Assembly (NCBI RefSeq): GCF_900108095.1
Contig: NZ_FNWL01000003.1
Coordinates: 1 to 50,440 of the forward strand
Length of the DNA: 50,440 nt
Origin: Natronorubrum sediminis
GTDB lineage: Archaea; Halobacteriota; Halobacteria; Halobacteriales; Natrialbaceae
Reading direction: 5' to 3'
Program-made: the position numbers and the translations under genes
Shown: one piece after another, positions 35,830-50,440 of the stretch
Layout of the letters: each line of letters starts with the position of its first letter
How positions within the stretch are numbered: the stretch's first letter is position 1
The notes under the pieces: generated by a model
What the model saw: only the letters and a program-made list of their open reading frames with translations
Database searches by the model: none
What the model was told of the DNA's origin: nothing

Positions 35830-37191
35830 TCACTCGAGTCCGAGCACGCCCTCGAGGAACGGCGTGACGGCCGTCGCGTCGACGGTCTCGTCCTCGAGCG
35901 CCGACGCTGCCGGGCCACCGAGGCCGAAGCAGCCGTATGCGGAGTCGTCGATGCGGCCGTGGGAGCCGCTGACCGTCGTCGGGTCCAGCGAGACCAATCC
36001 GTCGTCGCCGAAAAACAACTCGCAGGGGTCGAAGCCGGGCTTTTTGTGGATGTCCATGTCGGTGGCGTACGGCGGGGCGTCGTCGCGGTCGTCCCACCAA
36101 TAGTACTGGAACCACGCGTTTTCCTTCGCGACGAGGACGAACTCGCCCGCGTTCGGGTGGTCGATCCCGTACTCGGCTTTTCTGTCGTCGGCGAGAATCT
36201 CGTCGATCCCTTCGAGTCCAGCAAGGGCGTCTCGAGCCTCCTCCTGGACACCTTCGTCGGCGTAGACGTGAGCGATCTGGTGGTCGACCATGGCGAAGGC
36301 GTCCGACGCGGGGATGTCGACGTCGCCGTCGTCGGCCGTCTCGAGTAGCCCAGCCTCGCGAAGCGCGCGGTTCGGAAACACCGGCTGGTCGACGCCGTGG
36401 AAGCCGTACTCGCTGACGAGCGTGAGAAGGGTGTCGTCCCAGCGTTCGGTCTCGGCGAGGAAGTCGAGAAACGAGGAGAGGAGGCCGTCGACGGTCTCGA
36501 GTTCGGCCTCGAAGGCGTCGGAGTCGGGACCCTCACTTTGGCCGACGTAATCGAGGTGGGGCACGTACACCCAGAGCAGGTCGGGATCGAAGCGTTCGAT
36601 CGCTTCGCGTGCGGCGGTGAGGATCCACTCGCTGCTCTCGGCACTGGCTCCGGGCCCCCAGTAGCTGTGAAGCGGAAAGTGGCCGTACTCCTCGCGGAGG
36701 TCGTCGTAGAAGCCGTCGGGGTTCGTCCAGCAGTTCATCTCGAGGATGTTGTTGTCCTCGTCCTCGTTGGGCGAGGGGGTGAGCGCGACGTCGGCGCTCG
36801 TGCCGATCAGGTGCTGGAAGTTCAGGACGCCGGTCGTCAGCCCCGCCTCGTCGCTTGCGTACTCCCAGATTCGGTTTCGATCCGCCCGGTCGCGCTCCCA
36901 CAACTCGGCGGCGTCGCGCTCGCGGTCGTACTCGCCACTCGAGACGTCGCCGTGGTCTCGAGGGTGCATCCCGGTTGCGAGCGTCGTCTGTGCGGGGACC
37001 GTGACGGCCGGAAACGGCGGGCGGAGGTTAGTCACCTGATCTGTTGGAAATTGTTCGGCGAGCGTCGGCGTTCGGTCAGTGTCGACGTGGTGGGGCTGCA
37101 GCCCGACGACGTCGAGGACGATGACGCGGTCTGCAGCGATCGATTCGTGTGGAGCGGCTGGCGTCGGTTGGGTTGGGGTGTGTTCGGTCAT
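35830..37191 (-). CDS. eboF: EboF-like phosphodiesterase-superfamily protein
   Basis: 453 residues of the nucleotide pyrophosphatase/phosphodiesterase fold. VIVLDVVGL near residue 23 supplies the first metal Asp, VTVPAQTTLATGMHP holds the expected nucleophile Thr64, and YVPHLDYVGQSEGP and GSHGRID hold later ligands. The usual SDHG metal motif reads SEYGFHG, as I remember it in EboF. Family-specific blocks follow: FPNRALREAGLL, SDAFAMVDHQIAHVYAD, NAWFQYYWWDDRDDAPP, MDIHKKPGFDPCELFF. These mark it as EboF rather than a general phosphodiesterase. It is 42 bases downstream of the inositol-phosphate-synthase gene on the same strand, so the two form an operon. The substrate is unknown. Confidence 0.85.
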   Translation of the reverse strand: MTEHTPTQPTPAAPHESIAADRVIVLDVVGLQPHHVDTDRTPTLAEQFPTDQVTNLRPPFPAVTVPAQTTLATGMHPRDHGDVSSGEYDRERDAAELWERDRADRNRIWEYASDEAGLTTGVLNFQHLIGTSADVALTPSPNEDEDNNILEMNCWTNPDGFYDDLREEYGHFPLHSYWGPGASAESSEWILTAAREAIERFDPDLLWVYVPHLDYVGQSEGPDSDAFEAELETVDGLLSSFLDFLAETERWDDTLLTLVSEYGFHGVDQPVFPNRALREAGLLETADDGDVDIPASDAFAMVDHQIAHVYADEGVQEEARDALAGLEGIDEILADDRKAEYGIDHPNAGEFVLVAKENAWFQYYWWDDRDDAPPYATDMDIHKKPGFDPCELFFGDDGLVSLDPTTVSGSHGRIDDSAYGCFGLGGPAASALEDETVDATAVTPFLEGVLGLE

Positions 37192-37233
37192 TGATCGCGT
37201 CGAAAGACGTGCTTGATCGCGGGAAAGGGTGTA

Positions 37234-38448
37234 TCAACTGTGGCGTTCGGCGTACTCTGTGAGCCCCTCGAGTTGGCGGGAGAAGTCGTGCTCGTCAACG
37301 CCGAGTGGAGCCTTGAAGAACGACGAAAGCTGGGGCTGGAGGCCACCCTCGTCGTGTTCGTCCGCGTGGGCGATCAGCCGAACGAGGTCGAGCACGAGGG
37401 GCGCGGCCAGTGCGGAGTCTGAGCCCTCCCAGGTGAACTGCATCTTCATCTCGGTGTCGAGAAAGCCCTCGAAGTGGATGTAGTCCCAGGCCGTCTTCCA
37501 GTCCGCAAGCGAGGGCGTGTAGTCGATGCGGACTCGATTGTGTCCGATGTCGGGCAGAATGGACTCGAGCAGTTCGCCCTTGCTCGAGAGCTTGCCCGCG
37601 GCGTTCGCGTCGTCCTCGAGCACCAGCCCGTCCTTGTTGCCGAGGATGTTGTGGCCCTCCCAGGCGAGCACCTGCAGGTTCCGACCGGCGAACATCGGCG
37701 CGAGCGCGGATTTCACCAGCGTTTCGCCCGTTTTCGCGTCTCGGCCCATATGCGGGACGTTCTTCTCGACGGCGAGTTCGCGAATCCCGCCCAGCGCGTT
37801 GCCCGTACTCGGCGTGAAGTTGACGAAGGGGTGACCGTCGACGACGGCGGCGTAGGCGTAGAGCACGCTCGCCGGCAGGTCACCGTCGTCTTCCTCGATC
37901 GCTCGCTCGAGGGCCTCTCGGCTGTCGTAGGCGTCGGAATCGTCGAGTTCCGGCTCCGTCGAGGCGACGTTGACCACGACGAGTCGATCGAGGCCGTGAT
38001 CTTCGCGAAACGCCCGGTAGTCGGATCGAATCTGCTCGACGACGGAGCCAACCGTTAGCTCCGGGTCGAGGTGCTGGCTCTCCGCGGAGACGGCGGCCCC
38101 GCAGTTGCGGGCCGTTCCGACCTCGATTCGCTCGTCGATTCGCTCGAGGTCGTCTTCGACGGTCGCGAGCGTCTCACCGTCCGGAACGCCGTTGCGTTCG
38201 GACTGGCGAGTGGCCTGCTCGAGGAGCGATTCGCGTTCGATATCGTGACCGCCGAAGACGAATCCCGAGACGGGGGGAAGCTCGAGTCTCGAGACGGGGG
38301 CCCGTTCCGTGACCATGCCGGTGGTCCCGGTCAGCCCGCGAGCGATCGCTCGCGCACCCACGATGGCCGTCGTCGCGACGTTCCCACGAGCGCCGACGAG
38401 CCAGACGCCGAGTCGCTCGTCACTCTCGTTGGGAGTGGGTGCGCTCAT
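37234..38448 (-). CDS. ino1: myo-inositol-1-phosphate synthase-like protein
   Basis: 404 residues. It has an N-terminal NAD site (VWLVGARGNVATT), the family core FVNFTPSTGNALGGI and GRDAKTGETLVKSALAPMF, and the C-terminal DYIHFEGFLDTEMKMQFTW, SDSALAAPLVLDLVRLIA. The enzyme makes 1L-myo-inositol 1-phosphate from glucose 6-phosphate via NAD redox chemistry. It is the first gene of the minus-strand unit next to EboF and is divergent from EboB, TIM barrel and EboC-like genes. Inositol lipids are not standard for haloarchaea, so a special product is inferred. It appears to take the place of the sugar phosphate cyclase (EboD) of bacterial ebo clusters. Confidence 0.88.
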   Translation of the reverse strand: MSAPTPNESDERLGVWLVGARGNVATTAIVGARAIARGLTGTTGMVTERAPVSRLELPPVSGFVFGGHDIERESLLEQATRQSERNGVPDGETLATVEDDLERIDERIEVGTARNCGAAVSAESQHLDPELTVGSVVEQIRSDYRAFREDHGLDRLVVVNVASTEPELDDSDAYDSREALERAIEEDDGDLPASVLYAYAAVVDGHPFVNFTPSTGNALGGIRELAVEKNVPHMGRDAKTGETLVKSALAPMFAGRNLQVLAWEGHNILGNKDGLVLEDDANAAGKLSSKGELLESILPDIGHNRVRIDYTPSLADWKTAWDYIHFEGFLDTEMKMQFTWEGSDSALAAPLVLDLVRLIAHADEHDEGGLQPQLSSFFKAPLGVDEHDFSRQLEGLTEYAERHS

Positions 38449-38715
38449 CGCAGATCACGTCGGTCCGTTCGGACCGGCCCCGTGGCCGTCGCGTGGTGCA
38501 ACCCCGATTCCCTCTTCGTGCGTTCGGTGCGCAGCATCCTCCGAAAGTCGGGGGCGAGCGGTGTTTGTTATGGCACGCGTAGGACGCGTAATCGACCGTT
38601 GGCCGCTCGAGCAGGTGACTCGAGCGTCGCGCGTCGTCGTTTCATCGGCCGTAATCTGGGCTTTGTGGCTTGAACAGTCCGTTCATCCAAAACGGCCACC
38701 CGACGGAGACGACGT

Positions 38716-39516
38716 ATGCGGATTATCGACCCTCACATGCACATGATTTCGCGCTCCGCGGACGATTACGAGCGAGCGCGACGGGCCGGCATCGAGTGTT
38801 GTATCGAACCGGCGTTCTGGAGCGGACAGGACAAGCACAACGCCGGTTCGTTCTTCGATTACTTCGAGCAGATCATCGAACACGAGACCGACCGCGCGGA
38901 GCGGACGGCCAACGTGGACCACTACGTCACGATCGGTCTCGAGCCCAAGGAGGCCAACTACCGCGAGATGGCCGAGGAGGTCGTAGAGCGCGTCCCGGAG
39001 TACCTGGATCGCGACCCCGTCGTCGGCGTCGGCGAGATCGGCTTCGATCAGGTCACCGACGACGAGGAGTGGGCCTTCCGCGAGCAACTCGAGTTGGCCG
39101 AAGCACGCGAACTCCCCGTCATGATCCACACGCCCCACACCGACAAGCCGGCTGGCACCGAACGGATCGTCGAGATCATCGAGGAGATGGGGCTCACGGA
39201 AGAGCGAATCGTCATCGATCACAACACGGAGAACACGATCGACATCTCGACGCGAACCGACTGTTGGATCGGCTTCACGCTCTACCCCGGAAAGATCGAA
39301 GCCAGCGCGGCGATCGATCTCCTTGAGGAGTACGGCACCGACCGGATGCTGTTCAACAGCGCCGCCGACTGGGACCCCTCGGACCCGCTCGCGGTTCCGA
39401 AGGCGCGAGACGAGATGCTCGATCGGGGCTGGGAGCGCGAGGAGGTCAAGAAGGTCGTCTTCGACAACCCCTACGAGTTCTTCGATCAGTCGCCGAACTT
39501 CGACTACGAGCCCTGA
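38716..39516 (+). CDS. eboB: EboB-like TatD-family hydrolase
   Basis: 266 residues. It has the HMH metal motif at the start (IDPHMHM), then family-specific blocks: ECCIEPAFWSGQDKHNAGSF, VTIGLEPKEANYREMAEEVV, GVGEIGFDQVTDDE, MIHTPHTDKPAGTERI, VIDHNTENTI, GFTLYPGKIEASAAIDLL, NSAADWDPSDPLAVPK. These match EboB of the ebo cluster better than ordinary TatD DNases. GGAG seven bases before the ATG is a likely ribosome binding site. First gene of the plus-strand unit, 267 bases from the divergent ino1-like gene. The substrate is unknown. Confidence 0.88.
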   Translation: MRIIDPHMHMISRSADDYERARRAGIECCIEPAFWSGQDKHNAGSFFDYFEQIIEHETDRAERTANVDHYVTIGLEPKEANYREMAEEVVERVPEYLDRDPVVGVGEIGFDQVTDDEEWAFREQLELAEARELPVMIHTPHTDKPAGTERIVEIIEEMGLTEERIVIDHNTENTIDISTRTDCWIGFTLYPGKIEASAAIDLLEEYGTDRMLFNSAADWDPSDPLAVPKARDEMLDRGWEREEVKKVVFDNPYEFFDQSPNFDYEP

Positions 39517-39519
39517 ACC

Positions 39520-40350
39520 ATGCAGTTTGGCTTCTCCACCAACGCGTTTCGCGAGTACGGCCTCGAGGAGTCGATCGAGGCCATTGCCGACGCGGGCTAC
39601 GACGGCGTCGAACTGCTCTTCGACGAGCCACACCTCTATCCTCCCGACGCGAGCGAGGACGACTACGACGCCGTCCGGCAGGCCCTCGAGGCGAACGATA
39701 TCGCCATCAGCAACGGCAACGCGTTCATGTTGACGGCCATCGAGGACTTTCACCACCCATCCTACGTCGAACCCGACCCCGACTACCGCCGCGAACGAAT
39801 CGACTACACCCTCGCGGCCCTCGAGACCGCGGCCGAACTCGAGATTCCCTACATCTCGATCGAACCCGGCGGGCCGATTCCCGAAGGCAAGTCCCGCGAG
39901 TGGGCGATGGACCAGTTCGTCGACGCCCTCGAGGAGGTGGCTGATCGGGCCGAGGCCGTGGGCGTCGACCTCCTCGTCGAACCCGAACCCGACTTGCTGA
40001 TCGAGACCTCCGGGGAGTTCCTCGACCTGCTCGAGCGCGTCGACTCCGAACGAGTAAAGTGTAACTTCGACGCGGGCCACTTCTACTGCGTCGGCGAGGA
40101 CCCAGCGGAACTGGTCGACCCGCTCTGGGAGTACACCGACCACTATCACCTCGAGGACATCCCCGACGACCGAACCCACGAGCACACCCAACTCGGCGAC
40201 GGCGCGATGGACATCGACGCCTTCCTCGGCGAACTCGAGGGCCGAGGGTACGAGGGCTACGTCACCGTCGAACTCTACCCTTACGAGGAGACGCCGATCC
40301 AGACAGCGAACGAGGCGATGGACTACCTCGAGGAACGCGGGTGGACGTAG
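39520..40350 (+). CDS. sugar-phosphate isomerase/epimerase-type TIM barrel (EboE-like position)
   Basis: 276 residues, 3 bases after the eboB-like gene. AP-endonuclease-2/xylose-isomerase-like TIM barrel, opening with FGFSTNAFREYGLEESIEA. Predicted metal ligands are Glu in LLVEPEPDLLIE, Asp/His in CNFDAGHFYC, His in DHYHLEDIP and Glu in VTVELYPYEET. It would act on a sugar or cyclitol by metal-assisted proton transfer. Bacterial EboE is longer (about 400 residues in my memory), so the name is given by position and fold only. A close paralog lies at 44259-45107. Its TAG stop abuts the next frame. Confidence 0.88.
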   Translation: MQFGFSTNAFREYGLEESIEAIADAGYDGVELLFDEPHLYPPDASEDDYDAVRQALEANDIAISNGNAFMLTAIEDFHHPSYVEPDPDYRRERIDYTLAALETAAELEIPYISIEPGGPIPEGKSREWAMDQFVDALEEVADRAEAVGVDLLVEPEPDLLIETSGEFLDLLERVDSERVKCNFDAGHFYCVGEDPAELVDPLWEYTDHYHLEDIPDDRTHEHTQLGDGAMDIDAFLGELEGRGYEGYVTVELYPYEETPIQTANEAMDYLEERGWT

Positions 40351-40362
40351 GTGGTCGGGGGT

Positions 40363-40370
40363 GAGGAGGG
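40363..40370 (+). promoter_or_regulatory. ribosome binding site for the UbiA gene
   Basis: GAGGAGGG lies 7 bases before the GTG at 40378 and complements the CACCTCC tail of the window's own 16S rRNA. It favours the GTG at 40378 over the GTG at 40351 that directly follows the upstream stop. Confidence 0.65.
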
Positions 40371-40377
40371 CTCTGTC

Positions 40378-41310
40378 GTGATCGCCACCGAGCGAAGGGG
40401 GGTTCGAGACACGCTCGGGACGTACGCCGAACTCGTGCGCGTGCCGAACCTCTTCACCGCGCCACCGGACGTGATCCTCGGCGCGGCGCTCGTCGCGGCC
40501 GCTGGCGCAGGCGGCAACGTCGCCTCGACAGAAATCGTCGGCCTCGCAATCGCCTCGATGTTCCTCTACGCCGGCGGAACGACGCTCAACGACGCGTTCG
40601 ACGCCCCGAAAGACCGACTCGAGCGACCCGAACGCCCGATCCCCTCGGGGCGCGTTTCCCGTCGAACGGCGTTCGCACTCGGTACCTCGCTGCTCGTTTT
40701 CGGGATCGTCGTCGCGTTCGTCGCGACGGGCGTCTCCGGCGGCCTCGTCGCAGGGCTCCTCGCCGCCGCGATCGTCACGTACGACGGTTGGACGAAAGGC
40801 AGCGCCGCCGGATTCCTGACGATGGGCGCGACTCGAGGACTGAACGTCGTCCTGGGAACGACTGCGGGGGCCGTCTCCCTGCTCTCGCTCCCCGCGTCCG
40901 CGCTTCTCGTTTCGCTCGTCGTGGCGGCTTACATCGCCGCCGTCACCGGGATGGCCGCCGGCGAAACCGTTGGCGAGAATCGCGGCGCGGTCGGCCTTGC
41001 GATCGGTGCCGTGCTCGGAAGCGTCCTCGCCGTCGGCGGTTTTCACGTTGTCACCGGGTCGGGAGCGCTCGAGGCGGCGACTGCCCTCGCTTTCGCCGTC
41101 GCCTTCCTGTGGTGGGTCGGACGGCCGTTACGCGCAGCCGTCTCGGATCCGACACCCGCAACCGTCGGTCCGGCGGTCGGTGCCTGCGTCCTCGGTCTCG
41201 TCTTGCTCAACGCCGCGTTCGCGGCTGCGAGTGGCGTCCTGTGGGCGCTCGCGGCTGGCGTATTTTTGGTCCCCGCTCGAGGACTCTCGCAGGTGTTCGA
41301 CGTTACCTGA
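40378..41310 (+). CDS. eboC: EboC-like UbiA-family prenyltransferase
   Basis: 310 residues from the GTG at 40378, chosen for its well-spaced ribosome binding site; a 319-residue form from 40351 is possible. A UbiA polytopic membrane protein with eight to nine helices. The first Mg/prenyl-diphosphate motif is LNDAFDAPKD (NDxxD), followed by ERPERPIPSGRVS, and the second region is YDGWTKG with FLTMGATRGLNVVLG, the MGxxRxLNxxLG form I recall for EboC. It would transfer an isoprenoid chain from a prenyl diphosphate to a polar acceptor. With an inositol-phosphate synthase in the cluster, a cyclitol acceptor is the natural guess. Last gene of the unit. Confidence 0.88.
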   Translation: MIATERRGVRDTLGTYAELVRVPNLFTAPPDVILGAALVAAAGAGGNVASTEIVGLAIASMFLYAGGTTLNDAFDAPKDRLERPERPIPSGRVSRRTAFALGTSLLVFGIVVAFVATGVSGGLVAGLLAAAIVTYDGWTKGSAAGFLTMGATRGLNVVLGTTAGAVSLLSLPASALLVSLVVAAYIAAVTGMAAGETVGENRGAVGLAIGAVLGSVLAVGGFHVVTGSGALEAATALAFAVAFLWWVGRPLRAAVSDPTPATVGPAVGACVLGLVLLNAAFAAASGVLWALAAGVFLVPARGLSQVFDVT

Positions 41311-41450: not shown

Positions 41451-43940
41451 TCAGTAGTCGTCGCCGTTGTCGTCGTCTTCGTCCATCATCCCGTCGCCCG
41501 GGCCGTCTCCGTTCATGCCATCGCCGTCCATGCCGTCTTCGTCCATCCCATTCCCGTTCATCATCTCATCGTCTTCTTCCTCGTCCGGCGCTTCCGCTTC
41601 GGGCTCTTCCCCGTCCATCTCTTCTTCGTCGACGACGAAGGGGTCCTCCGGCTCGGGGACGTCCTCTCCCTCGTCGGCGGGGACGATTTTGTAGATCTCA
41701 CCCGTTTCCTCCTGCGGTCGGAAGTCGGTGTTCGCGAGGACGTAGAGTTCGCCTTCTTCGTCGCGCTCGACGCCGTAGACGTAGCGGTTGATCGACTCGT
41801 CGTCCGCGCCCTCGAACTGGAGTTCCTCGAGTTCCCAGCGCTCGTCGACCTCGACGAGGTCGGTCTCCCCGTCGTCGTCTACATCGTTGTCGTCTTCGTC
41901 AAGTTCGTCATCGTCGTCAGCATCGCCGTTGGTGGCAGGGTCGATCGCCGCGATGATCTCTCCATCCGCTTCGGCGACGCCCTGACTGCTCCAGTTGCCG
42001 AAGACGAACGCGTCCTCGAGTTCGGGGATCGCCTCGCCCGCGTACCGGTGGCCGCCGACGACGACCGAACTGTCGATGAACGCCTCCGAGATGCGAGTGT
42101 GTTGGTACTCCGCGATCGGATCTCGGAGCGGTTCGCCTTCCCGTGCCTCCCCGGCCCCCTCGCCGACCTCGTCGGGGCAGTCTTCCGGGGGCTCGAGGGG
42201 CGAGTCGGTGCTGAAGCAGAAGGATCCTTCCTTTACGTTCCAGCTGTAGTTGCCGCCCTCCTCGACGGCGTAGATCGATTCGACGGCGTGCTGGCCGGCG
42301 TCTGAGACGAACACCTGTCCGTCGTCGTCGATCGACATCCCCCACGGGTTGCGAAAGCCCCAGGCCCAGTACTCGCCTAAGTCCTCCTCGGAGTCGACGA
42401 GCGGGTTATCGTCCGGAATGCCGTACTCGCCGAACTCGGCCTCGGCTTCGCCGTCGTCATCGTCGCCGTTGTCGTCGTCATCGTCGACATCGTTCTCGTC
42501 CTCGAGTTCGTCGTTGTCGTCTGCGTCCTCGTCCTCGCCGTTCGCATCGACATCGATCCGGTGAATGCCGCCGAGGAGATTCTCTCGAGTATCCTGGGCG
42601 TTGCCGCCTTCGTTCTCGTCGTACCAGTCCTCCACGTGGCCGACGCCGATGTCGTGGACGTTGCCGCCGTCGCCGACCGACGTGTAGAGGTAGCCGTCGG
42701 GACCGAAGGCGAGTCGGCCGCCGTTGTGGTTGTCCTGGGGCTGTTGGATCTCCATGACGGTCCGCTCGGAGTCGGGGTCGACGCTGAGTTCGTCGCCGTC
42801 CGACTCGGCCTCGAACTCCGCGAGCACGTCGGTGTGGTCGTATCCCAGTCCCTCGCGTTCGGGGGCGCTGTACCTGACGTAGAACAGGCCGTTGTCCGAA
42901 AAGTCGGGGTGGAACGCGATCCCGAGCAGGCCGCGCTCGTCGTACCCACCGAGTTCGCCGATACCGAGGCTGACCAGTTGATCTTCGATGTCGAGGAAGA
43001 GGTCCATATCGTCGGTCGTCAGCGCGTCCTCGGGGACCTCGTCGTCTACTTCGTCGGGCTCGTCGGGATCTTCCTCCTCGACCTGGATACTCCCGACCAT
43101 CGTCCCCGGATGGACCTCACAGAGGTATCGATCCATCTCCTCGGTCGCCTCGAACTCGAGCGTCTGTGTTTCGCCCGCCTCTCGAATGATCTCCGTTCGC
43201 TCGAGGATCTCGTCCGTCGCGTCGAGAATCACGACGTTGTGGGGCTGGCCGTCGCCGTTCTCCCAGGTGAACTCGTAGGTTTCACCCGCAGTCAACTCGA
43301 GTGTCGGATTCTCCTCCCCGTCGAGTTCGTCGGGCTCCATCCCGAACCAAGCCGAAATGACGCCGTTGAAGACGAATTCCGTCGGTTCGCCGTCGTCGTC
43401 GACCGCATCGTCAACCTCGTCGTCCTCGTCGTCCGTCTCCTGAACGAAACTCTCCGTTTCCTCGTCAGCCGGCTCTTCTTCGACATCGTCTTCGTCGAGG
43501 TCATCCGCTGGCTCGTCATCGTCATCGAGGTCGGGGTCGTCCTCGAGATCGTCTTCGTCGTCGATCTCGTCGACGTCTTCCTCGAGGTTCGTGGCGAACA
43601 CCTGACCCGTCTGCGTGACGATGAAGTGATACACCTCGCCATTTACTTCGACGTAATCGAAATCCGTCGGCGCGGGGATGTTCGCGGCCATCAACTGGAG
43701 ACCGACCGTCTCTCCTTCGGGGAACTCCCCCGCGACGGGAATGTCACCGAACTCGTCGTCGTCCGCTTCCTCGACGTCCTCGTCCGGGTCGTCCTCGTCT
43801 TCTTGTGCCTGCACGCCTGCGACGCCACCGAGTGCCGTCGCAGACCCTGTCGCCGCGAGTGCGCGGAGGACCGTCCGTCGTGATTGTCGCGTGATCCGAC
43901 CGTCGTGAATACCGTCTGCTGGCTTATCTGGATAACTCAT
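41451..43940 (-). CDS. Tat-secreted sugar dehydrogenase with inserted cupredoxin domain
   Basis: 829 residues. A Tat signal (RR at 21-22, then a hydrophobic stretch ending GVQA) precedes a glucose/sorbosone-dehydrogenase-type beta-propeller. The first blade starts at about 70-118 (VTQTGQVFAT), is interrupted by an acidic stretch and a cupredoxin domain (about 187-300), and resumes with LFLDIEDQL near 312. The copper ligands of a type-1 site are His234 (QPHN), Cys274, His277 and Met281 (CEVHPGTM). Propeller motifs follow: GLLGIAFHPDFSDNGLFYV, FGPDGYLYTSVGDGG, WGFRNPWGMS. A Met/Gly/Asp-rich tail ends the chain. Likely a PQQ-using dehydrogenase passing electrons to its own copper centre; PQQ use is inferred from family. 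Confidence 0.87.
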   Translation of the reverse strand: MSYPDKPADGIHDGRITRQSRRTVLRALAATGSATALGGVAGVQAQEDEDDPDEDVEEADDDEFGDIPVAGEFPEGETVGLQLMAANIPAPTDFDYVEVNGEVYHFIVTQTGQVFATNLEEDVDEIDDEDDLEDDPDLDDDDEPADDLDEDDVEEEPADEETESFVQETDDEDDEVDDAVDDDGEPTEFVFNGVISAWFGMEPDELDGEENPTLELTAGETYEFTWENGDGQPHNVVILDATDEILERTEIIREAGETQTLEFEATEEMDRYLCEVHPGTMVGSIQVEEEDPDEPDEVDDEVPEDALTTDDMDLFLDIEDQLVSLGIGELGGYDERGLLGIAFHPDFSDNGLFYVRYSAPEREGLGYDHTDVLAEFEAESDGDELSVDPDSERTVMEIQQPQDNHNGGRLAFGPDGYLYTSVGDGGNVHDIGVGHVEDWYDENEGGNAQDTRENLLGGIHRIDVDANGEDEDADDNDELEDENDVDDDDDNGDDDDGEAEAEFGEYGIPDDNPLVDSEEDLGEYWAWGFRNPWGMSIDDDGQVFVSDAGQHAVESIYAVEEGGNYSWNVKEGSFCFSTDSPLEPPEDCPDEVGEGAGEAREGEPLRDPIAEYQHTRISEAFIDSSVVVGGHRYAGEAIPELEDAFVFGNWSSQGVAEADGEIIAAIDPATNGDADDDDELDEDDNDVDDDGETDLVEVDERWELEELQFEGADDESINRYVYGVERDEEGELYVLANTDFRPQEETGEIYKIVPADEGEDVPEPEDPFVVDEEEMDGEEPEAEAPDEEEDDEMMNGNGMDEDGMDGDGMNGDGPGDGMMDEDDDNGDDY

Positions 43941-44258
43941 TGTGTCTCACGTGAACTGCGTTCCTGTGGTGTGGACGACGTTCGAACGCAGCGGCCTCCG
44001 ACCGCGAGTCTGGCGAACTCGCTGCTGGCAGGAGGACTCAGCGCTCGCTGTGACTCGCCCTACCACGGAAGGGTCGCTCTGCCGAATAAATCGCGCAAAT
44101 CGTTCCACGCACAATCGCGCTCTGGCCGGCCGTTTCACGCGCTAATCTCGAGTTGCCGCTGCTTCTCCGCGCCTCGTCTTCCCGACAGTCCCTCATTCGA
44201 CGGTGTAGGGCTCGAATTCCTGGCCAACGGATTAGTACCTCGTCGGGATAGGCTCGCT
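43941..44258. other. divergent spacer between dehydrogenase and TIM-barrel gene
   Basis: 318 bases with no convincing gene. TTAGTAC near 44232, about 26 bases before the ATG at 44259, is a possible TATA box giving a leaderless transcript for the TIM-barrel gene. A long in-frame extension upstream of 44259 has no family-like sequence and is taken as non-coding. Confidence 0.55.
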
Positions 44259-45107
44259 ATGGTCGACCTCGCTTTCTCCACGAACGCGTACACGCGCCAC
44301 TCGCTGCCGACCGCGATTCGACGCATCGCTGACCACGGCTACGCCGGCGTCGAACTCCTCGGCGACGACCCCCACGCCTACTTCCCCGAATTTACCGAGG
44401 CGGACCGCGAGAATCTTCTCGAGGCACTCGAGGAGACCGACCTCGCCGTCTCGAACGTCAACGCGAACACGGCGATGGGGTACTACGACGACGCCCCACC
44501 CTCGGCGTTTTTCGAACCGAGCATCATCCGTGCGGACGCGGACGCCCGCGAATGGAGAATCGAGTACACGAAGCGAGCGATCGACCTCGCGGACACGGTC
44601 GACGCCCCCGCGGTCTGTCTGGCCACCGGGCGGCCACTCCCCGGAACGATGCCCGAGGAGGCTCGTGCGTACCTCCTCGAGTCGCTCTCGTCGATCCTCG
44701 ATTACGCCGACGCTCGCGGCGTCGCGGTCGGCATCGAGTACGAACCCGAACTCCTGATCGAGAATACGGACGAAGTCCTCGACTTACTCGAGGAAGTCGA
44801 CCGCGAGGGGCTCGGGATCAATCTGGACGTGGGCCACGCGGCAGTTTACGGCGAGGACGTGGCTGAGAGCATTCGCCGCAGCGCCGGTTCGATCACCGGC
44901 ATTCACCTCGAGGACATCGTCGGTGGGCGGCGGGGCAAGCACTACCACCGAATCCCCGGCGAGGGCGACCTCGACTTTCGAGCGATTTTCGACGCGCTCG
45001 ACGACATCGGCTACGACGGCTTTGCCACCCTCGAGTTGTACACCTATCCCGACGAGCCGGATCGCGCGGCTCGAGACGCTTACGAGGCGCTCGAGGCGTA
45101 CGTGTAG
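44259..45107 (+). CDS. sugar-phosphate isomerase/epimerase-type TIM barrel, paralog of 39520
   Basis: 282 residues from the ATG at 44259 (MVDLAFSTNAYTRHS), which aligns with the start of the protein at 39520 (shared FSTNA opening, GYxGVELL, and IAVSN-like strands). Metal-site residues are kept: IEYEPELLIENT, INLDVGHAAVYGED, GIHLEDI, ATLELYTYP. An extra GGRRGKHYHRIPGEGDLDF segment supplies His residues near the active site. It stands alone between two Tat-exported sugar dehydrogenases that are divergent and co-oriented with it, respectively, which suggests a role in handling the oxidised or transported sugar. Confidence 0.88.
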   Translation: MVDLAFSTNAYTRHSLPTAIRRIADHGYAGVELLGDDPHAYFPEFTEADRENLLEALEETDLAVSNVNANTAMGYYDDAPPSAFFEPSIIRADADAREWRIEYTKRAIDLADTVDAPAVCLATGRPLPGTMPEEARAYLLESLSSILDYADARGVAVGIEYEPELLIENTDEVLDLLEEVDREGLGINLDVGHAAVYGEDVAESIRRSAGSITGIHLEDIVGGRRGKHYHRIPGEGDLDFRAIFDALDDIGYDGFATLELYTYPDEPDRAARDAYEALEAYV

Positions 45108-45292
45108 TCGGTAGTCGAAGGGATTTCCAGTCGGATTTGGAGGCCGTCGATGATCCGACCCGGCGAATCGCTGATAATCCAAAACCCACGGGTAATGGTC
45201 CGCTACCCGAACGTTATATCAGAATAATCGTACAAATATTCGCAACGGCCCTGTCTGCCTTTCTCACCCCTCCTTGATAGCGTAGGCAGACG

Positions 45293-47473
45293 ATGACTGA
45301 CAACCAAGAGGCACCTGATTCAGGAGCCGACGACTCCCGACTACCGACCGACGAGGAATCGGTACCCGACGAGGAATCGACAGCCGAGCAGTCGCCCGAC
45401 TCGAGTCCGCCCGGTCCCCACTCGAAGCCATCCAGGCGTCGCTTCATGCAGGCGACGGCAGCCGCGAGCGCCGTCGTCGGGTTTACCGGCGCGGCGAGCG
45501 CGCAGGACGAGGACGAAGACGAAGACGACGACGAGAACGGCGACAACGAATTCGAACTCGGCGGCGCGAGCGACGCGTGGGTCGGCGAAGCACCCGAAGA
45601 CATCGAAGGAGAGGACAACCCGACGCTCGTCCTCGAGGAAGGCGAGAGCTACGAGGTGACGTGGGAAAATCTAGACGGCGTCGAGCACAACTTCGTCATC
45701 ATCGACGAGGAGGGCGACCACATCGTCGAATCCGAACTCATCGGAGAGGAAGGCGAAACGCAAACGGTCGAGTTCGAGGCCGAGGAGGAGATGTCGGAGT
45801 ACTACTGCGAACCCCACCCTCAGACGATGCGAGGAGACATCTCCTTCGACGAGGAGGAAGAAGAGGAGGAAGAAGAAGACGTCCGGTACTTCCCCGAAGG
45901 GCCGACGGTAGGCGTCGATACCGTCGCCGAGGGGATGATCGCGCCGACGGACTTCCACGACCCCGAGGGGTCGGACTATCAGTACGTCTCGGACCAGACC
46001 GGCGAAATCTACCTCATCGGCGACGACGGTATCGAAGACGAGCCATTCCTCGACATCGGCGACGAGATGGTCGCCGTCGGCGAGGAGTTCGCGGGACAGT
46101 ACGCTGATCCCGAGGGCGACTACGACGAACGCGGTCTGCTCGGTCTCGAGTTCCACCCCGAGTACGAGGACAACGGCTTGTTCTACGTCAACTACAGCGC
46201 TCCGCCGGACGACGAGACGCCCGACGACTGGTCACACGTCCAGGTTCTCTCGGAGTTCGAAGCCGAAGACGACGAGAGCGCCGACCTCGACTCCGAACGG
46301 CGCATCATGGAGATTCAACACCCGCAGTTCAATCACGACAGCGGCCCAATGGCCTTCGGCCCCGACGGCTACCTCTACTACCCGATGGGCGACGGCGGCG
46401 GTGGTGACGACGCCGACTACGGCCACGTCGAAGACTGGTACGACGAGAACGAGGGCGGCAACGGACAGGACACGGAGGAGAACCTCCTCGGCGGCATCCT
46501 CCGGATCGACGTCGACGAGCAAGAAGATCAGGACTACGGCGAGTACGGCATTCCGGACGACAACCCGTTCATGGAGGGCGAAGACCTCGAAGGCGAGGGA
46601 CTCGAAGAGTACTACGCGTGGGGGCTACGCAACCCCTTCGGCATCACCTTCAGCGAGGACGACCGCTGTATCGTCGCTGACGCCGGACAACTGCTGTACG
46701 AAGCAGCCTATCAGATCGAATCGGGTGAAAACTACGGCTGGAACGTCAGAGAAGGGTCGCACTGCTTCAGCACTGATTCGCCTGCGACGCCACCCGAGGA
46801 CTGTCCGACCGAGACGCCCGACGACGTTCGCGGCGGCGAACCACTGATCGATCCCGTCGTCGAGTACCCGCAGGTCTACGAAGGCGAGGGGGTCGGCATC
46901 GTCATCATCGGCGGCCACACCTACGAGGACGACACGATCGAGGAACTCGAGGGCAAGTACATCTTCGGCGACTGGACGGTCGACCAGGGCCGCCAGCAGC
47001 CACTGGGTCGCGTCTTCGCCGCCGAACCGGAAGATCTTGACCTCGAGCCGACCGACGACCGAGACGAGTACGGCGGCCGCCCGCAAGAGGAGCTGTGGGA
47101 CATGGAAGAAGTGATGTTCGAGGGTAACGAGGACGGTGAACTCTACCACTTCGTTCGCCAGTTCGGCCGCGGTGCCGACGGCGAGGTGTACATCCTCGCG
47201 AACCAGGTTGGCGTCCCGCAGGGTGACACCGGCGTCGTCCTCGAGATGGTTCCCGAGGGCGAAGGCGAAGAGATCGAAGAACCGGACGACATCGAGGAAC
47301 CCGACGACGAGGAAGAAGACCCTGCGGAAGACGAGGAGGACGCCGAGGACCCTGACGAAGACGAAGACGACGAGGACGAGCATCCAGGGGACGTAGACGA
47401 AGAGCCAGACGACGAAGACGAAAACGGAGAGAACGACGAGAACGACGAAAACGGAACGGACGACGACGAGTAA
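45293..47473 (+). CDS. Tat-secreted sugar dehydrogenase with N-terminal cupredoxin domain
   Basis: 726 residues. Tat signal with SRRRFM (47-52) and a cleavage site near ASAQD (about 70). A cupredoxin domain comes first (about 83-195) with His132 (VEHN), Cys172, His175, Met179 (CEPHPQTM). The sugar-dehydrogenase beta-propeller follows with YVSDQTGEIYLIG, ERGLLGLEFHPEYEDNGLFY, AFGPDGYLYYPMGDGG and WGLRNPFGI, then a long Glu/Asp tail. A paralog of 41451-43940 with the same two domains in different order. TATA-like GTTATATC at 45213 lies about 75 bases before the start. Cell-surface or secreted; sugar oxidation is inferred. Confidence 0.88.
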   Translation: MTDNQEAPDSGADDSRLPTDEESVPDEESTAEQSPDSSPPGPHSKPSRRRFMQATAAASAVVGFTGAASAQDEDEDEDDDENGDNEFELGGASDAWVGEAPEDIEGEDNPTLVLEEGESYEVTWENLDGVEHNFVIIDEEGDHIVESELIGEEGETQTVEFEAEEEMSEYYCEPHPQTMRGDISFDEEEEEEEEEDVRYFPEGPTVGVDTVAEGMIAPTDFHDPEGSDYQYVSDQTGEIYLIGDDGIEDEPFLDIGDEMVAVGEEFAGQYADPEGDYDERGLLGLEFHPEYEDNGLFYVNYSAPPDDETPDDWSHVQVLSEFEAEDDESADLDSERRIMEIQHPQFNHDSGPMAFGPDGYLYYPMGDGGGGDDADYGHVEDWYDENEGGNGQDTEENLLGGILRIDVDEQEDQDYGEYGIPDDNPFMEGEDLEGEGLEEYYAWGLRNPFGITFSEDDRCIVADAGQLLYEAAYQIESGENYGWNVREGSHCFSTDSPATPPEDCPTETPDDVRGGEPLIDPVVEYPQVYEGEGVGIVIIGGHTYEDDTIEELEGKYIFGDWTVDQGRQQPLGRVFAAEPEDLDLEPTDDRDEYGGRPQEELWDMEEVMFEGNEDGELYHFVRQFGRGADGEVYILANQVGVPQGDTGVVLEMVPEGEGEEIEEPDDIEEPDDEEEDPAEDEEDAEDPDEDEDDEDEHPGDVDEEPDDEDENGENDENDENGTDDDE

Positions 47474-47610: not shown

Positions 47611-47958
47611 TCAGGCTGAGACCATCTCTCGACAGCTTTCTGCACACTCGGGCAGGATCTCTGCACAAGCCTGACAGTGGTCGTGATCGTGTTGGGCACA
47701 CTCTTCGGCGCACTCCTCACAGATGTCGGCACAGAGTTCGCCGAGTTCCCGATGATACCCCGAATTACGGGCCATGAATCGCGCGTGAAGCGAGGCGACG
47801 TCTGCCACGTCCCGACAGAGACGGATACAACGCGCCATTCCCTCTCCCTCGCCCGCACAGGCGTCGGCACACCACTCACAGACCTGTGCAGCCTCGAGGC
47901 AGTTATCGATACACTCCTGCATGTGCTCGTCCGCGTGCTCGAGTTGCTGTAATGCCAT
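47611..47958 (-). CDS. four-helix Cys-rich copper-binding protein (DUF326 type)
   Basis: 115 residues from the ATG at 47958 (MALQQLEHADEHM); a GTG 21 bases earlier is possible but less like family members. Regularly spaced Cys and His along four helices (CIDNCLEAAQVCEWCADACAG, CIRLCRDVAD, CADICEECAEECAQH, CQACAEILPECAESC) match the Csp1/DUF326 four-helix-bundle copper-storage family. No signal peptide is seen, so a cytoplasmic copper store is inferred. Its placement beside two secreted copper-site proteins is suggestive. Confidence 0.88.
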   Translation of the reverse strand: MALQQLEHADEHMQECIDNCLEAAQVCEWCADACAGEGEGMARCIRLCRDVADVASLHARFMARNSGYHRELGELCADICEECAEECAQHDHDHCQACAEILPECAESCREMVSA

Positions 47959-48097
47959 CGTCCGTATCGACTCGAGCACCGGGCATCAAGCTAACACGAG
48001 CGAACGCAAGCAATTGTACTCTCGACACAGTCACGAAATAATTACTTTTCACTCGGTGTTCAAACCTTGCATATGTGTGATAATGTTTAACAACCAT

Positions 48098-49391: not shown

Positions 49392-50440
49392 ATGTCACGG
49401 ATAACACGAAACCAGGTATCTGCACTGATCGTTGCTGTCCTTATGGTGTCAGCCGCATTCGCTGGCGGCGCATCGGTTGTCGGGGCAAGCACTCAAGCCG
49501 ACGCTGACGAAGAGGCCGACGAGATTAACGCGCTCATCGGAGATATCAACGAACAACTCGAGAACGTAGACGACGTCGAAACGGTCGACGAAGTCGACGA
49601 TGATACTGCCGACGAGGTCCAAGATGACATCTTCACGCAAGTTGTCGCTGAGATAAACACGCAATCTCAGGACATGCTCGGTGAAGACATCGCAGACGAT
49701 GTCGACACCCCTGAAGAAGCACAAGAAGAAGCTGACGAGATCGAAGACGAGTACGGCATTGCTGCTCAAGAAGCAGTCGACGGACTGAACAACGCCGCGG
49801 ACAGCGTTGAGGAGATCCAGGAGATCGCCGAACAAGTCGAAGACGCGGATGACGACGAAGCAGACGATGACGAGGCAGATGACGACGACGCGGACGATGA
49901 CGAAGCCGACGATGACGAAGCCGACGATGACGACGCGGATGACGACGAAGCAGATGACGACGACGCGGATGACGACGACGCGGACGACGACGAAGCAGAT
50001 GACGACGACGCGGACGACGACGAAGCAGATGACGACGACGAAGCCGGTGACGATGTGGCCGACGATATCAACGCGCTCATCGAAGATATCAACGAACAAC
50101 TCGAGAACGTAGACGACGTCGAAACGGTCGACGAAGTCGACGATGACACTGCCGACGAAGTCCAGGACGACATCTTCACGCAGGTCGTTGACGAGATCAA
50201 CACGCAATCTCAGGAAATGCTCGGTGAAGACATCGCAGACGATGTCGACACCCCTGAAGAAGCACAAGAAGAAGCTGACGAGATCGAAGAAGAATACGGC
50301 GCTGCTGCTCAAGAGGCAGTCGACGGATTGAACAACGCCGCGGACAGCGTTGAGGAGATCCAGGAACTCGCCGAACAAGTCGACGACGAAGCAGACGATG
50401 ACGACGCGGACGACGACGAGGCAGATGACGACGACGCGGA
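49392..50440 (+). CDS. secreted, highly acidic, duplicated-module protein (partial)
   Basis: 349 complete codons with the 3' end beyond the window. A Sec-type signal (residues 1 to about 34, MSRITRNQVSALIVAV..., cleavage near GAS) is followed by module 1 (about 43-150), an (A)DDD(E/D) linker of about 70 residues, module 2 (about 224-330), and the start of another acidic linker. The modules are almost identical, offset 181 residues, with segments INEQLENVDDVETVDEVDDD and QEAVDGLNNAADSVEEIQE, helical with coiled-coil character. No Cys or catalytic motif is visible. Surface or extracellular, possibly binding cations or acting as a spacer. I do not recognise a family. Confidence 0.85.
   Translation, partial: MSRITRNQVSALIVAVLMVSAAFAGGASVVGASTQADADEEADEINALIGDINEQLENVDDVETVDEVDDDTADEVQDDIFTQVVAEINTQSQDMLGEDIADDVDTPEEAQEEADEIEDEYGIAAQEAVDGLNNAADSVEEIQEIAEQVEDADDDEADDDEADDDDADDDEADDDEADDDDADDDEADDDDADDDDADDDEADDDDADDDEADDDDEAGDDVADDINALIEDINEQLENVDDVETVDEVDDDTADEVQDDIFTQVVDEINTQSQEMLGEDIADDVDTPEEAQEEADEIEEEYGAAAQEAVDGLNNAADSVEEIQELAEQVDDEADDDDADDDEADDDDA
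49845..50039 (+). repeat. 15-bp coding repeat of the acidic linker
   Basis: About thirteen degenerate copies of a 15-bp unit of the type GATGACGACGAAGCA encode ADDDE/ADDDD pentads. Another such array begins at about 50385 and continues past the window edge. Confidence 0.9.

Follow-up and report, generated by a model that had tools for sequence, protein, structure and literature searches.

Electron-transfer domains fused to enzymes are usually appended at the N- or C-terminus. Among the closest described systems, the Asd propellers (2g8s, 3a9g/3a9h, 3das and 7cdy) are six-bladed, carry a catalytic His-Asn-Gly-Gly-Arg motif, an Arg-Asn pair and an Arg-x-Arg pair near the C-terminus, and have no fused copper domain, and HHIP, which has a related propeller, binds hedgehog. 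The pyranose dehydrogenase of Coprinopsis (CcPDH, AA8-AA12-CBM1) links its propeller to an electron-transfer domain that serves as an internal mediator (PMC6881789); this domain is an N-terminal cytochrome b outside the propeller. Archaeal fusions of a cupredoxin with a propeller of the glucose/sorbosone dehydrogenase (GSDH) family, annotated as PQQ-dependent sugar dehydrogenases in Methanothrix and Methanoperedens, have the cupredoxin at the N-terminus, and in the three-domain nitrite reductase of Hyphomicrobium (2dv6) a cupredoxin is tethered in one chain to an enzyme of another catalytic fold. In cyanobacteria, the exported protein ScyE acts downstream of the ebo cluster; in Nostoc this cluster is required to export the scytonemin monomer, whose subsequent oxidation is attributed to periplasmic ScyE (PMC6282210).

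We analysed a window of 50,440 nucleotides from the haloarchaeon Natronorubrum sediminis (contig NZ_FNWL01000003.1), which encodes a GSDH-type propeller with a cupredoxin inside its first blade (INS) and a paralogue with the cupredoxin at the N-terminus (NT). INS shares with Asd the six-bladed fold (Z 34-37), the catalytic motif and the Arg-Asn pair, but differs in its blade-1 cupredoxin and in having only Arg719 of the Arg-x-Arg pair. Among solved structures, HHIP (Z ~36) is nearest to the propeller in sequence; its aligned segment lacks the Arg-Asn pair. The fused domain of INS is a copper domain rather than a cytochrome b and lies within the propeller, and the fold is more distant from that of the Coprinopsis enzyme (Z ~26). 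The archaeal fusions, NT included, consist of the same two domains as INS with no insertion, and nitrite reductase 2dv6, which came first among the solved structures matching the copper domain, has its cupredoxin outside any propeller. INS has a gene neighbourhood of a type similar to that of ScyE, but matches the ScyE_fam profile very weakly (E 0.045), and the likeness is one of neighbourhood. A search of the accessible literature found neither a cupredoxin insertion in a propeller nor a copper-linked PQQ sugar dehydrogenase, although such cases may have been described elsewhere. The placement of the copper domain in INS is real and unusual, and INS is a variant among copper-tethered GSDH propellers.

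The cupredoxin of INS lies within blade 1 of the propeller

INS consists of a Tat signal, blade-1 strands, an acidic linker, the cupredoxin, a second acidic linker and the remaining propeller, and NT of a Tat signal, the cupredoxin, an acidic linker and the propeller (Table 1). Both proteins passed the gathering cut-offs of GSDH (PF07995) and Copper-bind (PF00127), with E-values of 8.5e-27 and 9.3e-07 for INS and 3.1e-19 and 4.9e-08 for NT; the GSDH profile scored 94.7 and 69.9 bits, respectively, against a cut-off of 25. They share 44% identity (BLASTP, E 8e-127) and are the only GSDH-family genes found in the N. sediminis genome. The same propeller and copper domain are thus present in both, as an earlier sequence-only reading of this DNA had claimed, and its numbering of the four copper ligands in each protein was exact. 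No lipobox Cys was seen when the Tat signal region of INS was read directly from the translation.

Table 1. Features of the INS and NT locus, with positions in the window and residues (aa) of the encoded proteins
Feature	Position	Strand	Remark
ebo-like cluster: phosphodiesterase (-), inositol-phosphate-synthase-like (-), TatD (+), xylose-isomerase-like (+), UbiA (+)	35830..41310		
INS, 829-aa GSDH/HHIP-type propeller, Tat-exported (predicted), cupredoxin within blade 1	41451..43940	-	
INS rest of propeller, aa 312-755, with H405, R530, N531, G549, Q550, H614, R719	41676..43007	-	
INS right acidic linker, aa 290-311	43008..43073	-	59% Asp+Glu
INS inserted cupredoxin, aa 187-289, ligands H234, C274, H277, M281	43074..43382	-	
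INS left acidic linker, aa 119-186	43383..43586	-	66% Asp+Glu, low model confidence
INS blade-1 N-terminal strands, aa 74-118, 5' of insert	43587..43721	-	profile match and model strands 10-52
INS Tat signal region, SRRTVLRALAATG..., aa ~18-46	43803..43889	-	translation read directly
XylI2, second xylose-isomerase-like gene of ebo-like cluster	44259..45107	+	
NT, 726-aa paralogue of INS, cupredoxin N-terminal	45293..47473	+	
NT cupredoxin, aa 87-184, ligands H132, C172, H175, M179	45551..45844	+	
NT propeller, aa 201-655	45893..47257	+	
DUF326, Csp3-type copper-storage homologue, adjoins NT	47611..47979	-	

Profile matches in all ten INS members placed the blade-1 strands at ~74-118, the cupredoxin at ~187-289 and the resumption of the propeller at ~311, and the blade split expected at about residues 119 and 310 was accordingly found at ~118 and ~311. 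The His/Cys/His/Met copper ligands are intact in 10/10 INS members and in the NT protein of the window. A coding or assembly artefact was rejected for INS, as the presence of the inserted form in ten genomes excludes a sequencing error of this kind. At the C-terminus of INS (41451-41576), a Met/Gly/Asp repeat tail (MDGDGMNGDG-like) was observed in the genome of the window and in one other (G120); the tail could possibly bind Cu(I).

A structure model of INS (aa 66-762), built from a 100-row alignment, reached a pLDDT of 77.5 and a pTM of 0.76, with values mostly >90 in the cupredoxin and ~50 in the linkers. Strands C (48-52, QVFAT) and D (248-252, DLFLD) of blade 1 flank the cupredoxin (model residues 122-223), so that the insert occupies the C-D hairpin, and the propeller closes around it rather than leaving it outside. 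Profile matches and the INS model together bore out an N-terminal copper domain in NT and one inside blade 1 in INS, the arrangement originally proposed. VIA-align matched the INS propeller to Asd (Z ~37), HHIP (~36) and sGDH (~32) on both sides of the insert, over model residues ~10-692, and the model is a six-bladed propeller of the Asd/sGDH type (Z 31-37). Foldseek matched the copper domain to the three-domain nitrite reductase and to rusticyanin. In general propeller topology the C-D loops point away from the top-face cofactor pocket, so electron transfer to the inserted domain would depend on flexible linkers.

Propeller phylogeny and the origin of the inserted domain

Ten of the 125 family genomes carry the inserted form; they belong to five genera and include Natrialba hulunbeirensis and Halopiger djelfimassiliensis. 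A propeller tree, calculated with the insert left out by a quick search with one support measure, grouped the INS members in one clade (SH-aLRT 99). The sister of this clade (support 99) is a protein of genome G272 that represents an intermediate form: it has an N-terminal cupredoxin and, at the insertion site, an acidic loop of ~105 residues with no copper domain there. Other proteins with an N-terminal cupredoxin fall outside INS plus G272, and the NT protein of the window was placed in a different subclade from that of G272. Because the nearest outside relative of INS is the G272 protein, the propeller tree rejects INS and NT of the window as a direct before/after pair. N-terminal cupredoxin-GSDH fusions are widespread, occurring also in Methanothrix and Methanoperedens, and the blade-1 insert is therefore probably the derived state; an ancestor with both copper domains, of which G272 then lost the inserted one, could also have existed.

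Domain relocation, as the sequence-only reading had it, stood in part. The propeller tree and the architectures support a change of copper-domain position in the history of the propeller, but that the same domain moved was not established. In a cupredoxin tree of 98 columns and 100 rows, the inserted cupredoxin sat on a long branch (0.48) and grouped weakly with free halocyanins (60/87). A constraint joining it to the G272 domain cost 1.3 log units (p-AU 0.465), whereas joining it to the N-terminal GSDH cupredoxins cost 31.5 log units (p-AU 0.129); since neither grouping was rejected, relocation of the same copper domain is plausible. In the best tree the inserted domain falls apart from the N-terminal ones, so capture and relocation are about equally likely, and we put capture at somewhat under even odds. 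In that event, a protein with the N-terminal fusion would have taken up a free halocyanin in its acidic loop and later lost its original N-terminal cupredoxin. This agrees with the halocyanin grouping and with the tie between the best outside matches of the inserted domain, a free cupredoxin of G345 (62%, 125.9 bits) and an N-terminal GSDH cupredoxin of G398 (125.8 bits). Against capture stand the low support on a long branch with few columns, the small cost of joining INS with the G272 domain and the AU result for the N-terminal domains. The ancestral order in the INS lineage would have been an N-terminal cupredoxin followed by the propeller; the C-D loop of blade 1 may first have become a long acidic stretch, the state seen in G272, and a cupredoxin would then have settled there, with loss of the N-terminal one.

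A second insertion was found in G209, from another archaeal family (f8), where the ThuA-GSDH protein L239 (2-2815) carries an intact cupredoxin in the loop directly before the Arg-Asn strand, with Gly-Ser linkers on both sides. In its paralogue L302 (1463-5890), 26 kb away, a cupredoxin lies close to the C-terminus, ahead of a dockerin. At the DNA level the two genes are 88% identical in both the cupredoxin (309 bp) and the dockerin (241 bp), against 44-49% protein identity of the propellers. This comparison, made in one genome, suggests that the cupredoxin module was recently copied or moved between L239 and L302, in either direction. The insertion in L239 is in an open frame and its linkers are unlike those of the paralogue; it is known from one genome only, and an assembly chimera was considered. 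C-terminal cupredoxins on GSDH proteins also occur in G183 and G272. A similar insertion has thus been found twice, in two archaeal families, and the copper domain can therefore change position within this enzyme family. Separately, the ThuA-GSDH-malectin protein L265 (12-3935) of G183 was seen to contain two cupredoxins, of which the C-terminal one is intact and the N-terminal one has Ser in place of the copper Cys.

Active site, cofactor and gene neighbourhood

His405, Arg530, Asn531, Gly549 and Gln550 are retained in all INS members; across the aligned set the catalytic His is universal and the Arg-Asn pair nearly so. The C-terminal Arg-x-Arg of Asd (Arg406/Arg408 of sGDH) is not kept: INS has Arg719 alone, and in the clade of the window NT the site is His, where the alignment is offset by one residue. 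The dehydrogenase residues expected in the propeller were thus recovered for the catalytic His and Arg-Asn, and missing for the Arg-x-Arg pair. TIGR03606, which describes a PQQ-dependent dehydrogenase subfamily, gave 59.8 and 56.5 bits, far under its cut-off of 434.55. At the curated cut-off, a search for PqqC had no match in any of the 391 haloarchaeal genomes but recovered the protein from two bacterial genomes in the collection, and PqqE fell below the cut-off in the N. sediminis genome. GSDH-type genes are common among the 391 genomes though PqqC is absent, and any PQQ used by haloarchaea would probably be scavenged. CcPDH binds PQQ without equivalents of Arg408 and Lys377 of sGDH (PMC6881789), so INS could still bind PQQ. 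Of the AA12 set for PQQ binding in CcPDH (Arg273, His363, Arg430, Asn431, His539, His560 and Arg621), INS has equivalents of His363, Arg430 and Asn431; the others did not align one by one.

The assignment of both proteins as sugar dehydrogenases with PQQ was therefore not established, and the sugar substrate and PQQ stay unproved, annotation-level attributions for INS and NT. That they are ordinary PQQ-dependent sugar dehydrogenases with a fused copper acceptor is possible but unlikely. Membership of the GSDH family, the closeness of the fold to Asd, the plasmid-borne relatives annotated as PQQ-dependent sugar dehydrogenases and the possibility of scavenging PQQ agree with such a role, but the low subfamily score of INS, the lost Arg-x-Arg and the absence of PqqC from haloarchaea do not.

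INS lies between UbiA and XylI2, antisense to both neighbours, in a conserved six-gene cluster that contains UbiA, a TatD-type hydrolase, a xylose-isomerase-like protein and a PF01663 phosphodiesterase, the combination by which we recognised ebo-like clusters. The cluster resembles the ebo cluster (PMC5133447). Among the neighbours scanned with Pfam, neither EboA nor EboD (sugar-phosphate-cyclase type) was identified; an inositol-phosphate-synthase-like gene is found there instead. A close TatD homologue was present in 55 of the 391 haloarchaeal genomes, nearly always beside the remaining cluster genes, and 20 of these 55 have a GSDH-type gene no more than ~10 kb from the cluster, a count inflated by shared ancestry. 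INS interrupts the cluster in six of its ten carriers, and no such cluster was found near INS in the other four within the stretches examined. By analogy with ScyE in Nostoc, INS might be the extracytoplasmic oxidase of an ebo-like pathway, acting on a metabolite that the UbiA/TatD/isomerase/phosphodiesterase cluster handles or exports. We regard this role as doubtful: the position of INS in six carriers, the neighbouring GSDH-type genes, the export function of the Nostoc cluster and the very weak ScyE_fam match point towards it, but four INS genomes have no cluster beside INS, many clusters have no GSDH gene within 10 kb, INS is antisense to its neighbours, and the gene content departs from that of ebo as described above. 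Rather improbable, too, is a broader proposal of a roaming haloarchaeal redox module that occupies N-terminal, C-terminal, blade-1 and mid-propeller positions (two propeller loops, with acidic or Gly-Ser landing tracts) and whose blade-1 form would link a ScyE-like oxidation to an ebo-like export cluster.

The DUF326 protein beside NT matches Csp3 copper-storage structures (E 8e-19); a Csp3-type gene adjoins NT in two genomes and INS in two others (G116 and G408), all of one genus (g1). Further downstream, an acidic repeat ORF (49392-50438, ADDDEADDDD...) with no Pfam match runs off the end of the window.

Least probable is a non-catalytic binding protein, whose HHIP-like propeller would bind a ligand or surface while the cupredoxin separately transfers electrons or holds copper: no solved structure matches the sequence better than HHIP, part of the residues that bind the PQQ carboxylates are missing and the 391 haloarchaeal genomes lack PqqC, but every INS member retains the catalytic His, Arg-Asn and Gly-Gln, and RNP of INS aligns with HDP in HHIP.

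Proposed function and significance

Taken as a whole, the results are best explained, with a probability of roughly 60%, by exported, copper-tethered relatives of GSDH/HHIP propellers that oxidise a substrate and in which, in the INS lineage, a cupredoxin has settled in the blade-1 loop. INS and NT would both be such proteins, oxidising a small organic substrate at the conserved top-face pocket (His405, Arg530-Asn531 and Gly-Gln) with a quinone-type cofactor, either PQQ scavenged from outside or another. The tethered type-1 copper would receive electrons from the pocket and deliver them to the halocyanin/terminal-oxidase chain; halocyanin has been described as the haloarchaeal one-electron carrier (PMC8305020). 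The putative intramolecular step from propeller to copper is plausible. The long acidic linkers may keep the cupredoxin mobile, in which case its position in the chain would matter little for reaching the active site.

The name "PQQ-dependent sugar dehydrogenase" given to these haloarchaeal proteins is thus an annotation-level one, and their use of PQQ is flagged as questionable; some of the proteins so named are tied to an ebo-like cluster. A copper domain in a blade hairpin, a relative with the same loop expanded and empty, and a second case in another archaeal family together allow the stages by which a domain is inserted to be compared and tested.
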